Shown: piece after piece, positions 44,539-57,755 of the stretch
Layout: every line of letters begins with the position of its first letter
Position numbering within the stretch: position 1 is the first letter of the stretch
Program-made: the position numbers and the translations under genes
Notes under the pieces: model-generated
What the model was told of the DNA's origin: nothing
What the model saw: the letters and a program-made list of their open reading frames with translations, nothing else
The model's database searches: none
Source: Flavobacteriaceae bacterium
Lineage (GTDB): Bacteria > Bacteroidota > Bacteroidia > Flavobacteriales > Flavobacteriaceae
DNA length: 64,000 bases
Direction of reading: 5' to 3'
Assembly: GCA_947463515.1 (NCBI GenBank)
Contig: CANHRI010000007.1
Span: 1-64,000, forward strand

Positions 44539-44567
44539 TATTCAGTCGCAGTCGCAGTGGGCAGGAG

Positions 44568-44830
44568 GTGTAAAAGTGGAAAGGGTTTACTAGTGTAGCA
44601 GTAGCTGTGATTGAAAGATCATTTTCAAATCTTCAAATTGTCTCATTTTCAAATTGAAGTGTAAAAGTGGAAAGAGTTTACTAGTGTAGCAGTAATTACG
44701 TTTGAAAGATCATTTTCAAATTTTCAAATTACCTCATTTTCAAATTAAAGTGTAAAAGTGGAAAGGGTTTACTAGTGTAGCAGTAATTACGTTTGAAAGA
44801 TCATTTTCAAATCTTCAAATTGACAAATCG
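44568..44830 (+). repeat. 91-bp tandem repeat, about 2.9 copies
   Basis: GTGTAAAAGTGGAAAG(G/A)GTTTACTAGTGTAGCAGTA... begins at 44568, 44659 and 44750. Confidence 0.93.
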
Positions 44831-44852
44831 TCTCATTGACTCATTGACTCAT

Positions 44853-53531: not shown

Positions 53532-54848
53532 ATGAGTACGAAAACTGTGCCTTACGTGGCGTACAAAGTTAAAGACATTTCCCTAGCTGCTTGGGGACGT
53601 AAAGAAATTGAATTGGCTGAAGCGGAAATGCCAGGATTAATGGCATTGCGTGAAGAATACGGTGCTTCGCAACCGTTGAAAGGAGCGCGCATCGCAGGAT
53701 GTTTGCACATGACCATTCAAACAGCGGTTTTGATTGAAACCTTGAAAGCCTTGGGCGCTGAAGTAACTTGGTCTTCGTGTAACATTTTCTCTACGCAAGA
53801 TCACGCTGCTGCTGCGATTGCTGCGGCGGGTATCCCAGTATATGCATGGAAAGGAATGAACGAGGAAGAATTCGACTGGTGTATTGAGCAAACCTTATTC
53901 TTTGGTGAAGACCGTCAACCGTTGAACATGATTTTGGATGATGGTGGAGATTTAACCAATATGGTATTTGACCGTTACCCAGAGTTAATTGGCAACATCA
54001 AAGGTTTGTCGGAAGAGACAACGACAGGGGTTCACCGTTTGTACGAGCGTATGAAAAACGGTACGTTACATATGCCTGCCATCAACGTAAACGACTCGGT
54101 TACAAAATCAAAATTTGACAACAAATACGGCTGTAAAGAATCGGCTGTAGATGCGGTTCGTCGTGCTACCGATATCATGTTGGCTGGAAAACGCGTGGTA
54201 GTTTGTGGCTACGGTGACGTAGGTAAAGGTACAGCAGCTTCATTCCGTGGAGCGGGTTCGATTGTTACGGTTACTGAAATCGATCCAATCTGTGCGTTAC
54301 AAGCGGCTATGGACGGATTTGAAGTGAAAAAATTGGATACGGTGATCGCAACAGCAGATATCGTAATCACGACTACAGGGAACAAAGATATCGTAGTAGG
54401 TCGTCACTTCGAGAACATGAAAGACAAAACGATTGTATGTAATATCGGACACTTTGATAACGAAATCGACATGGCGTGGTTGAACGCGAACTATGGCGAA
54501 ACCAAAATCGAAATCAAACCCCAAGTGGACAAATACAACGTAAACGGGAAAGACATCATCATCTTGGCTGAAGGTCGTTTAGTGAACTTAGGTTGTGCTA
54601 CAGGTCACCCTAGCTTTGTAATGAGTAACTCGTTTACCAACCAAACGTTGGCACAAATCGAATTGTGGAACAACAGCGCGAACTACAAAAACGAAGTGTA
54701 CATGTTACCGAAACATTTGGATGAAAAAGTAGCGGCATTACACTTGGCGAAATTAGGCGTGGAGTTGGAAACCTTAAACCACGAACAAGCCGAATACATC
54801 GGAGTTCAAGTAGAAGGGCCGTACAAGCCTGAGTACTACAGATACTAA
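53532..54848 (+). CDS. ahcY: Adenosylhomocysteinase
   Basis: 438 aa; [47 protein letters not shown]; ending [10 protein letters not shown]. Confidence 0.98.
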
Positions 54849-55027: not shown

Positions 55028-55117
55028 AGAGAGGCAAGAAGAAAGAGAAAAGAAGCAAGAGAAAAGAAGCAAGAAAAAGAGAAAAGAGAAAGCCAATGCA
55101 AAACACTGGCTTTTCTA

Positions 55118-55171
55118 TTATAGGGTTTCTTTCAACCCTTTGTAAAATTCATTTTGCCAAACGATGGCGTT
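55118..55171 (-). pseudogene. Displaced second copy of the S9 peptidase 3' end (NAIVWQNEFYKGLKETL-stop)
   Basis: Aligns to 55851-55904, about 48/54 nt identical, same frame, ends in a stop. Confidence 0.9.
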
Positions 55172-55178
55172 TGTCCAA

Positions 55179-55529
55179 TTAAAAATCATCTTTATCCAAA
55201 ATGGCTTGTACCTTAACTTTCAATTCGGGTAAATTAATTTTGACTACATTCCATATCGTGAAATCATCAATACCAAAATATTCATGAATAACTAAATTTC
55301 GTAATCCAATAATTCTCGCCCAAGGTATTTCTGGATGATTTAAAAGTAAATTTTGTGATAATCTATTACAAGCTTCTCCGATAATTTCAAGCTGCCTTAA
55401 GGTTGCATTAAACATCATTGAATTTTTTACAAAATGATCCAAATCGGCATCTTGAATATAGTTTTCTATTTCAGTTATTGCGTCCATGACATGAAGCAAT
55501 CGAACTTTATCCCCTAACCTATCTTGCAT
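55179..55529 (-). CDS. HEPT-domain protein (HepT-like)
   Basis: 116 aa DUF86/HepT-like; NATLRQLEIIGEACNRLS...WARIIGLRNLVIHEYFGID. Confidence 0.92.
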   Translation of the reverse strand: MQDRLGDKVRLLHVMDAITEIENYIQDADLDHFVKNSMMFNATLRQLEIIGEACNRLSQNLLLNHPEIPWARIIGLRNLVIHEYFGIDDFTIWNVVKINLPELKVKVQAILDKDDF

Positions 55530-55812
55530 AAATTAATTTTTTCTCTTTATCCACGATGGGTTTGATGTATTTTGACAAACCTCGTTCAGAAACTAAATCT
55601 ACTTTTTTGGATAGTAGTTCTTGTAAATCCAATTGCATCTGAATAAATTCTAAACCAATGGGCTGGGAATAATCTAACTCAACCAACAAATCAATATCAC
55701 TAGAATCATTTTCTAAATCTTTACTATAAGACCCAAAAAGGTAGGCTTTCAAAACAGGTTGTTTCGAAAAAAAATTCTGTATAATATTGATTTGATTGCT
55801 GTTAAGACTCAT
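55519..55812 (-). CDS. MNT-domain minimal nucleotidyltransferase (MntA-like)
   Basis: LKAYLFGSYSKDLENDSSDIDLLVELD: GS...DxD nucleotidyltransferase motif; overlaps the HEPT gene by 11 bp. Confidence 0.92.
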   Translation of the reverse strand: MSLNSNQINIIQNFFSKQPVLKAYLFGSYSKDLENDSSDIDLLVELDYSQPIGLEFIQMQLDLQELLSKKVDLVSERGLSKYIKPIVDKEKKLIYAR

Positions 55813-55850
55813 CTTCAAAGTGTTTGAACAAAATTAATCAAAAAAAACAT

Positions 55851-57755
55851 CTATAACGTCTCTTTCAACCATTTGTAAAATTCATTTTGCCACACGATGG
55901 CGTTTTGGGGTTTTAGCACCCAGTGGTTTTCATCGGGGAAGTACAAAAACCGACTCTTAATGCCTTTCAATTGAGCCGCTTGGAAAGCTTCTTGTCCTTG
56001 TCCAATCGGTACGCGGTAGTCCTTGCCTCCTTGAATGATCAAAATCGGCGTATTCCAGTTGTTCACGAAGTTAATCGGGTTAAACTGACTGAACGTTTTC
56101 TGTGCTGCAGCATTGTCTTTTTCCCAATAGGGTCCGCCGTGGTCCCAATTGGTAAAGAAAACTTCTTCGGTGGTACCGTACATACTTTCTAAGTTAAACA
56201 CCCCACAATGGGAAATAAACGTTTTGAAACGGTTGTTGTGAATTCCGGCCAAATAAAACACCGAATACCCTCCATAACTCGCTCCTACCGCTCCCAAACG
56301 GGCTTTGTCGACATAGGCTTCTTTGGAAACATCATCAATGGCTGACAAATAATCTTGCATCACTTGCCCGCCCCAATCTTTGGAGATTTGTTCGTTCCAA
56401 GCGACGCCATGACCGTGCATTCCACGTCGGTTGGGCGCCACCACGATATAGCCTTGCGAAGCCATCAACGAAAAATTCCAACGGAACGAATACGACTGGG
56501 TCAGCGGTGACTGGGGTCCGCCCTGGCAATACAACAAGGCGGGGTATTTTTTGGTCGCATCAAAATTGGGCGGTAAAATCACCCACACCAACATTTTCTT
56601 ATTATCGGTAGTGGTCACATAGCGACGCTCGAATTTGGGTAAGTTCAAACTCGCATAGGCCGCATCATTCACATGCGTCACTTGATTCCACGCTTTCGAT
56701 TTTAAATCATAGGTATACACCTCAGCGGCATGATTCATGTCGGTGCGCGTCACCACTACTTTAGTTCCTGAAAACCCAATGATATCGGCTACATCAAAGT
56801 CGCCGTTGGTCACTTGTTTCACGGTTACCGCAATTTTGGTTAGCCCCGGATAGTTCACTTCAAACAGTTGTTTTGTACCGTCGATAGCGGCCACAAAATA
56901 GATTTTTTTTCCATCTGGAGCCCACATGAAGTTATCGACACTGCCGTCCCAAGCGGCGGTTAAATTCACTTTTACTTGATCGTTGATACGAACAATGATA
57001 TCATTTTTGTCGGCTTCATAGCCGTCGCGTTGCATTTGTAAATAGGCCAAAACCCCTTGTGCTGAAAACGCCGGATTGGTGTCGTATCCTAAATTCCCTT
57101 CGGTGAGGTTACGGGTGGTTTTGGTTTCGATGTTATACTCGTACAAATCGGTATTGGTCGAAATCGCATAGGCGGTTCCTGCTTTCTTTTTACACACATA
57201 AATAATGGTGTTGTTGGGTGACCAAATATAGTCTTCTTCTCCCCCGTGTGGTTTTTGGGGTGCGTCAAAAGGTTCGCCCGCCATAATATCAAACGGTGTG
57301 GCCTTAGGGTCGTTTGCATCGGCAAAATACACGTGGTTGTGGGTACCGTCGTTCCAAGTATCCCAGTGGCGGTAATCGAGTCCGTTGTAGACTTGCGCTG
57401 TAGACTTATCCAGTTCGGGATAAAAGTCTTTTCCTAAAACCTTTTCAACTTTGGTTTCTTTTGAAGACAACAAATACTTCCCATTGGGCGATAGATTCCG
57501 GTTGGCCACCAGTGCTTCTGCATTTTGAACCTCGGTAGCGGTTCCGCCAGCAACGGGAACTGTAAAGTATTTTGATGACGATTTATTTTCGGCCACAGAA
57601 GGCGTTGAAACTTTATATACTATCGTTTGTCCGTCTTTGGTTAAACCCAAAACGGAAACGCGCCCTAGTTTCCAGAGCATATCTGGAGTTAGGGCTTGCG
57701 CACTTGCTGCAACACTCATAAGACTTAAGATTACAATGCCAATTTTTTTATTCAT
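55851..57755 (-). CDS. S9-family prolyl oligopeptidase-like peptidase
   Basis: GAVGASYGGYSVFYLAG nucleophile elbow; PDENHWV catalytic His region; WD40-like N-terminal beta-propeller. Confidence 0.93.
   Translation of the reverse strand: MNKKIGIVILSLMSVAASAQALTPDMLWKLGRVSVLGLTKDGQTIVYKVSTPSVAENKSSSKYFTVPVAGGTATEVQNAEALVANRNLSPNGKYLLSSKETKVEKVLGKDFYPELDKSTAQVYNGLDYRHWDTWNDGTHNHVYFADANDPKATPFDIMAGEPFDAPQKPHGGEEDYIWSPNNTIIYVCKKKAGTAYAISTNTDLYEYNIETKTTRNLTEGNLGYDTNPAFSAQGVLAYLQMQRDGYEADKNDIIVRINDQVKVNLTAAWDGSVDNFMWAPDGKKIYFVAAIDGTKQLFEVNYPGLTKIAVTVKQVTNGDFDVADIIGFSGTKVVVTRTDMNHAAEVYTYDLKSKAWNQVTHVNDAAYASLNLPKFERRYVTTTDNKKMLVWVILPPNFDATKKYPALLYCQGGPQSPLTQSYSFRWNFSLMASQGYIVVAPNRRGMHGHGVAWNEQISKDWGGQVMQDYLSAIDDVSKEAYVDKARLGAVGASYGGYSVFYLAGIHNNRFKTFISHCGVFNLESMYGTTEEVFFTNWDHGGPYWEKDNAAAQKTFSQFNPINFVNNWNTPILIIQGGKDYRVPIGQGQEAFQAAQLKGIKSRFLYFPDENHWVLKPQNAIVWQNEFYKWLKETL

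Follow-up and report, generated by a model that had tools for sequence, protein, structure and literature searches.

The window analysed here is a stretch of 64,000 nucleotides from a Flavobacteriaceae bacterium (assembly GCA_947463515.1, contig CANHRI010000007.1; Flavobacterium genome G000 in our comparisons). On its minus strand a 634-aa gene of the S9 prolyl oligopeptidase family (55851..57755; PF00326, 1.5e-53), the host gene of the insertion described below, is followed by two small genes whose reading frames overlap by 11 bp: an MntA-like antitoxin of 97 aa (MNT; 55519..55812; PF18765, 7e-13, and PF01909, 9e-12) and a HepT toxin, a HEPN RNase, of 116 aa (55179..55529; PF01934, 1.7e-26). 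The convergent right neighbour of the site is ahcY, the gene for S-adenosylhomocysteinase (53532..54848, plus strand; PF05221, 1.5e-139). The translations contain GSX10DXD in MNT (GSYSKDLENDSSDID) and RX4HXY in HepT (RNLVIHEY), motifs known from active HepT/MntA pairs (as defined in PMC7641770). The adjacent PF01909 and PF01934 genes with both motifs make this a type VII HepT/MntA pair, which also has the gene order of the known systems (PMC7641770), and by analogy with them the MNT protein should adenylylate and silence the HEPN RNase. HepT relatives were found on 1443 plasmids, every one at <60% identity, so our plasmid search gave no close plasmid source. Elsewhere in the window, at 44565-44837, there is a 91-bp unit in three tandem copies of 85-89% identity, and the 2.4-Mb genome G000 has eleven matches to PF05635, the 23S rRNA intervening-sequence protein.

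The pair is bracketed by a 54-nt direct repeat at 55119-55172 and 55852-55905 (91% identity, start-to-start spacing 733), the copies of which read NAIVWQNEFYKWLKETL and NAIVWQNEFYKGLKETL. They align with a BLAST E value of about 1e-17 in a search within the locus, and since the runners-up among the direct repeats of this 5-kb region measure only 14-19 nt, the 54-bp repeat is far above chance. The proximal copy (55852..55905, minus strand) is the last 54 bp of the intact peptidase gene. The distal copy (55119..55172, minus strand) is an orphan duplicate of the peptidase 3′ end that is decaying, with a W-to-G change and, in genome G038, an indel. A preliminary description of this locus had proposed an insertion at the 3′ end of the peptidase gene with a duplicate of the gene end on the far side, and the repeat search and the Pfam gene calls confirm what was seen; the reading as an insertion that leaves the peptidase gene intact is likewise supported. 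Of its details the repeat itself stands, while the number of differences between the copies, put at about 6, is 5 of 54 positions, and the stop codons, which each copy was said to keep, differ because the repeat stops after the TA: the proximal stop is TA|G, with its G from the insert, and the distal one is TA|A, with its A from the native side. The boundary of the repeat thus lies within the stop codon, and it is the insert that, with its G, completes this codon for the host gene.

The insert between the copies (55173..55851, minus strand, from the repeat coordinates and the junction table) is 679 bp long and consists of a leader, MNT, HepT and a 6-nt tail, in agreement with the earlier estimate of about 0.7 kb without a visible integrase; in the ORF list and the Pfam searches MNT and HepT are its only genes, with no integrase or transposase, and the repeat search of the locus gave no inverted pair bracketing it, that is, no terminal inverted repeats. 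Within the insert and 16 nt ahead of the MNT start, TAATTTTG (55829..55836, minus strand) is a candidate -7 element, read from the sequence on the basis of TAnnTTTG, which we take to be the Bacteroidota consensus, and a similar TAAATTTG precedes MNT in loci L076, L077, L106, and L107. Downstream of the distal copy lies a terminator-like hairpin, AAAGCCAGTG..CATTGGCTTT (55088..55114, minus strand), probably, to judge from the sequence, the original terminator of the peptidase gene.

The peptidase gene is present in 199 of 200 congeners. The closest genomes, G099 and G038 (94% peptidase protein identity), have the same module with both copies of the gene end, the between-copy identity being 85 and 80%, respectively. 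Flavobacterium fontis DSM 25660 also has the module, with a TAA stop at codon 5 of HepT (L104:3501-3848) and a distal copy that is interrupted by another insertion of about 2.3 kb; the module is common to the window genome and these three relatives. The distal copies of three genomes have 2 to 4 mutual differences vs. at least 5 from any proximal copy, and the W-to-G change is common to them, a pattern to be expected if the copies go back to one event and the orphan has decayed since. A relative without MNT/HepT, in which a single gene end was to be looked for, is available in G171 (78% protein identity only), where there is no insert and one gene end situated 267 bp from ahcY. In a pattern scan of 400 genomes, both copies were found only in G000, G038, G099, and G141, all of them occupied, and G301 had a single match on each of two contigs. 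These data bear on the idea that the gene end was first duplicated in tandem and that the module entered between the copies at a later time. Tandem duplications are common in general, and the two copies have diverged; yet among the 400 congeners there is no genome with the copies side by side and no cargo, an arrangement that the preliminary description had named as fatal to its proposal, and prior duplication does not predict that repeats tightly bracket modules across HepT loci (see below). We therefore consider this history very improbable.

Other MNT/HepT modules beside duplicated host-gene ends, for which a search had been suggested, were found at rimO, a DUF924-like gene, arginase and pyruvate carboxylase. 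The rimO end is duplicated beside a HepT module in Rudanella (63 bp, 92%; 45 bp, 93%); at other rimO-linked modules the second copy of the gene end is not present. The end of a gene that we take to be DUF924-like is duplicated over 37 bp in Limnohabitans and 30 bp in another Comamonadaceae genome, that of arginase over 62 bp at 100% identity in G495, and that of pyruvate carboxylase over 112 bp at 97% in G441. Six relatives provide the empty arginase site, having a single gene end and no second copy, and in the sequence read there no module lies directly behind the gene. The split stop codon at the left junction recurs at arginase (L203; TA|A proximal, TA|G distal) and pyruvate carboxylase (L283; T|AG proximal, T|GA distal), while in L264, L223, L224, and L231 it is the start of the downstream gene that is duplicated instead. 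The duplication is about 27-120 bp long in the other HepT loci and varies from about 30 to 140 bp over all events, and each insertion event duplicates a different sequence; no shared core or end motif was seen when the junctions were compared by eye. By our own count, the left junction is ≤5 bases from the host stop codon in about 8 of the 13 HepT positives with the upstream copy over the 3′ end of a co-oriented ORF, but part of this could come from selection for an intact host gene and part from non-coding flanks decaying faster, so that we treat the junction position as a lead only. In several Flavobacterium genomes MNT/HepT modules lie between nuoE and nuoF (L089-L097; the nuoF domain is confirmed, and the neighbor is presumably nuoE from its position), and neither these nor the HepT modules ahead of a peptidase-like gene had flanking repeats. 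Modules without any repeat are in fact the majority of HepT modules, which counts against insertion with a long target duplication.

To place these cases in proportion, we scored 165 distinct HepT modules, drawn from a scan of named genomes, a class-wide sample and a genus sample with the clade of the window counted once, for the best direct repeat between stop-1000..-450 and stop-45..+150. With a cut-off of ≥40 bits, picked after the first survey had been inspected, bracketing repeats were found at 28/165 HepT modules (17%), and also at 5/30 PIN and 6/30 ParE modules. The corresponding values were 5/570 for ordinary ORFs, taken from the same genomes and 80-250 aa in length (HepT vs. ordinary ORFs, Fisher p = 8e-15), 8/1046 for arbitrary anchors and 0/30 for GNAT acetyltransferases; one of the five positive ordinary ORFs shares its repeat with ParE locus L320, with which it is probably identical. 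In a test of position, 24 of the 52 repeats in HepT loci lay close around the module, in a zone that makes up 2% of the position space. The survey supports the general idea, put forward in the preliminary description, of a small unit that moves with duplicated gene ends.

Two single-gene controls indicate how these counts should be read. PF05635 genes were positive in 2/30 cases, both low-complexity repeats, and GIY-YIG genes in 12/28, with repeats that are mostly palindromic and intergenic, a result which means that the repeat statistic alone is no proof of target duplication. The cases with a duplicated gene end or gene start, roughly half of the HepT positives, are the strong evidence; among all HepT positives we count about 15 in which there is overlap with a long host ORF. 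Some of the counted HepT repeats are without a long ORF (L239, L257, and L265), and some that are intergenic may belong to repeat families instead of being target duplications. The flanking direct repeats of the standalone GIY-YIG genes of Bacteroidia (L465, L471, L473, L477, L478, L479, L483, L487, L488, L490, L492, and L493) are an observation in their own right: they are long, and with their mostly palindromic character the genes look like REP-associated nucleases, a phenomenon distinct from target duplications.

The peptidase site has received other cargo. In G141, a more distant species, an Mrr restriction gene (PF04471) lies at the same peptidase site, flanked by a 48-bp, 94% identical duplicate of G141's own peptidase end, and this insertion is an event independent of that in the window, at the same site. 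Among Mrr relatives elsewhere in the genus, gene-end duplications were not found besides that of G141. The peptidase/ahcY interval is a cargo hot spot in Flavobacterium (L036-L043, L046, L063, and L066), with MNT/HepT, Mrr-type, GIY-YIG-like, Xre-like and other cargos (names beyond Mrr were assigned by eye), and the second gene-end copy is absent at most of the occupied sites. Tyrosine-integrase elements enter the 3′ ends of genes and restore them, and the window locus is like them in that the gene end is regenerated and a second copy remains on the far side; unlike them, its insert is sub-kilobase and has neither an integrase nor a common core, and the duplication length is variable. One could suppose, with the preliminary description, that an integrase supplied in trans uses the peptidase 3′ end as its attachment site, as two cargos, MNT/HepT and Mrr, occupy one gene end with duplications of similar extent, and many different cargos occupy the interval across the genus. 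However, the insert is without an integrase, other modules duplicate unrelated sequences of differing length with no common core or terminal motif, and most occupied peptidase sites do not have the second copy, and we give site-specific recombination in trans very little credence. The likeness to integrases at tRNA 3′ ends drawn in the preliminary description is not supported, for the same want of an integrase, shared core or terminal inverted repeat and for the varying lengths.

At the peptidase site the module occurs in just one further lineage, represented by the much more distant G159: its gene end is followed by MNT, behind a leader similar to that of the window, and by a truncated HepT, and there is no distal copy. 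The two copies in G000 differ from each other at 6 aligned sites vs. 15 between the G000 distal copy and the gene end of G159, and these values do not fit a single old insertion with a shared duplication unless there was later homogenization or transfer. From the sequences, either the copies would have been homogenized, or the module would have moved between lineages after the first insertion, or there would have been two insertions at one point. G159 is also pertinent to one-sided recombination facilitated by homology, in which the left join to a donor consisting of the peptidase 3′ end and MNT/HepT would be made by homology in the peptidase, and the right join would be illegitimate, just inside the recipient's gene end, which would be left as the distal copy. 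The module of G159, at the same gene end and with a similar leader, means that such donors could exist, and the cargo of G000 is somewhat closer to G159 (84% nucleotide identity for MNT and 82% for HepT) than the peptidase is (72%). Similarity does not rise toward the peptidase 3′ end, though, where G000 is no closer to G159 than to other relatives, a result that also lends no support to the homologous exchange suggested earlier. Recombination of this kind leaves the variety of host genes unexplained, as well as the perfect arginase duplication, since the sampled relatives have neither a second copy nor a module behind the gene. We consider it unlikely, although less so than the two alternatives above.

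We think it likely that a minimal MNT/HepT module of about 0.68 kb inserted into the stop codon of the peptidase gene, that about 54 bp of target were duplicated, and that no self-encoded recombinase took part. What was observed is the pair of copies around a minimal insert, which one relative lacks and a small clade shares, together with the same arrangement at unrelated host genes. We infer a staggered insertion: the openings in the two strands would have been about 54 nt from each other, and the overhangs on both sides would have been filled in. Fill-in would leave the upstream copy with the complete gene, its stop codon finished by the first base of the insert, and the downstream copy as a functionless relic with the native terminator still attached. 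The candidate routes for the joining, with no recombinase of the module's own, are that linear module DNA was captured at a break with staggered ends or that it was copied in through template switching in the course of repair. Two things may then favor the persistence of such modules: the host gene is spared, thanks to the long duplication, and a cell that loses the antitoxin pays for it.

Insertion with long target duplication is the simplest reading of such an event, which is unlike transposition in having neither a transposase nor terminal repeats; the closest precedent is that of restriction-modification complexes, whose target duplications are long and variable (Nobusato 2000; Furuta 2010, cited in PMC3874152 and PMC3031569). 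As in that precedent, there is no known transposase, the direct duplications are long and variable (theirs of the order of 100 bp), and insertion is deduced by comparing related genomes. The loci described here have variable long flanking repeats, single-copy empty sites (G171 and the six arginase relatives) and, in the window insert, no transposase, integrase or terminal inverted repeats. Unlike the restriction-modification insertions, the cargo is a type VII toxin-antitoxin (TA) pair, and in other cases a PIN or ParE pair, so that the window cargo is not a restriction-modification system, although a restriction gene, Mrr, is at the same site in G141; further differences are that the repeats were measured here against controls, that they recur at gene ends and that the junction is at the stop codon. 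HEPN/MNT pairs have been called mobile two-gene modules (Makarova 2009, PMC2701414); in the passages searched on known HepT/MntA systems, mobility is inferred from patchy distribution, and no insertion structure or flanking repeats were found. Our literature search, with most subscription papers outside its scope, found no earlier report of long target duplication for non-restriction TA pairs.

The distribution of TA pairs is patchy and they are described as mobile, although a solitary pair has no genes for mobility. The scar, at 17-20% of the modules of three families vs. about 1% of ordinary genes, is a concrete and datable trace of their entry into the chromosome, and it ties TA pairs to the long target duplications of restriction-modification genes. 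It also makes the mechanism testable, through the age of the duplications, the chemistry of the junctions and the dependence on repair genes. As a tentative generalization, for which the case falls somewhat short of even, solitary TA modules of unrelated families might commonly spread by inserting without a transposase, in many cases at or within the stop codon of a conserved gene, and duplicating 30 to 120 bp of target as they do so; it would be the length of this duplication that allows a selfish, autonomous unit of two genes to enter dense operons without harming them. The scar suggests how TA pairs enter genomes without a jumping enzyme of their own while the host gene remains unbroken.
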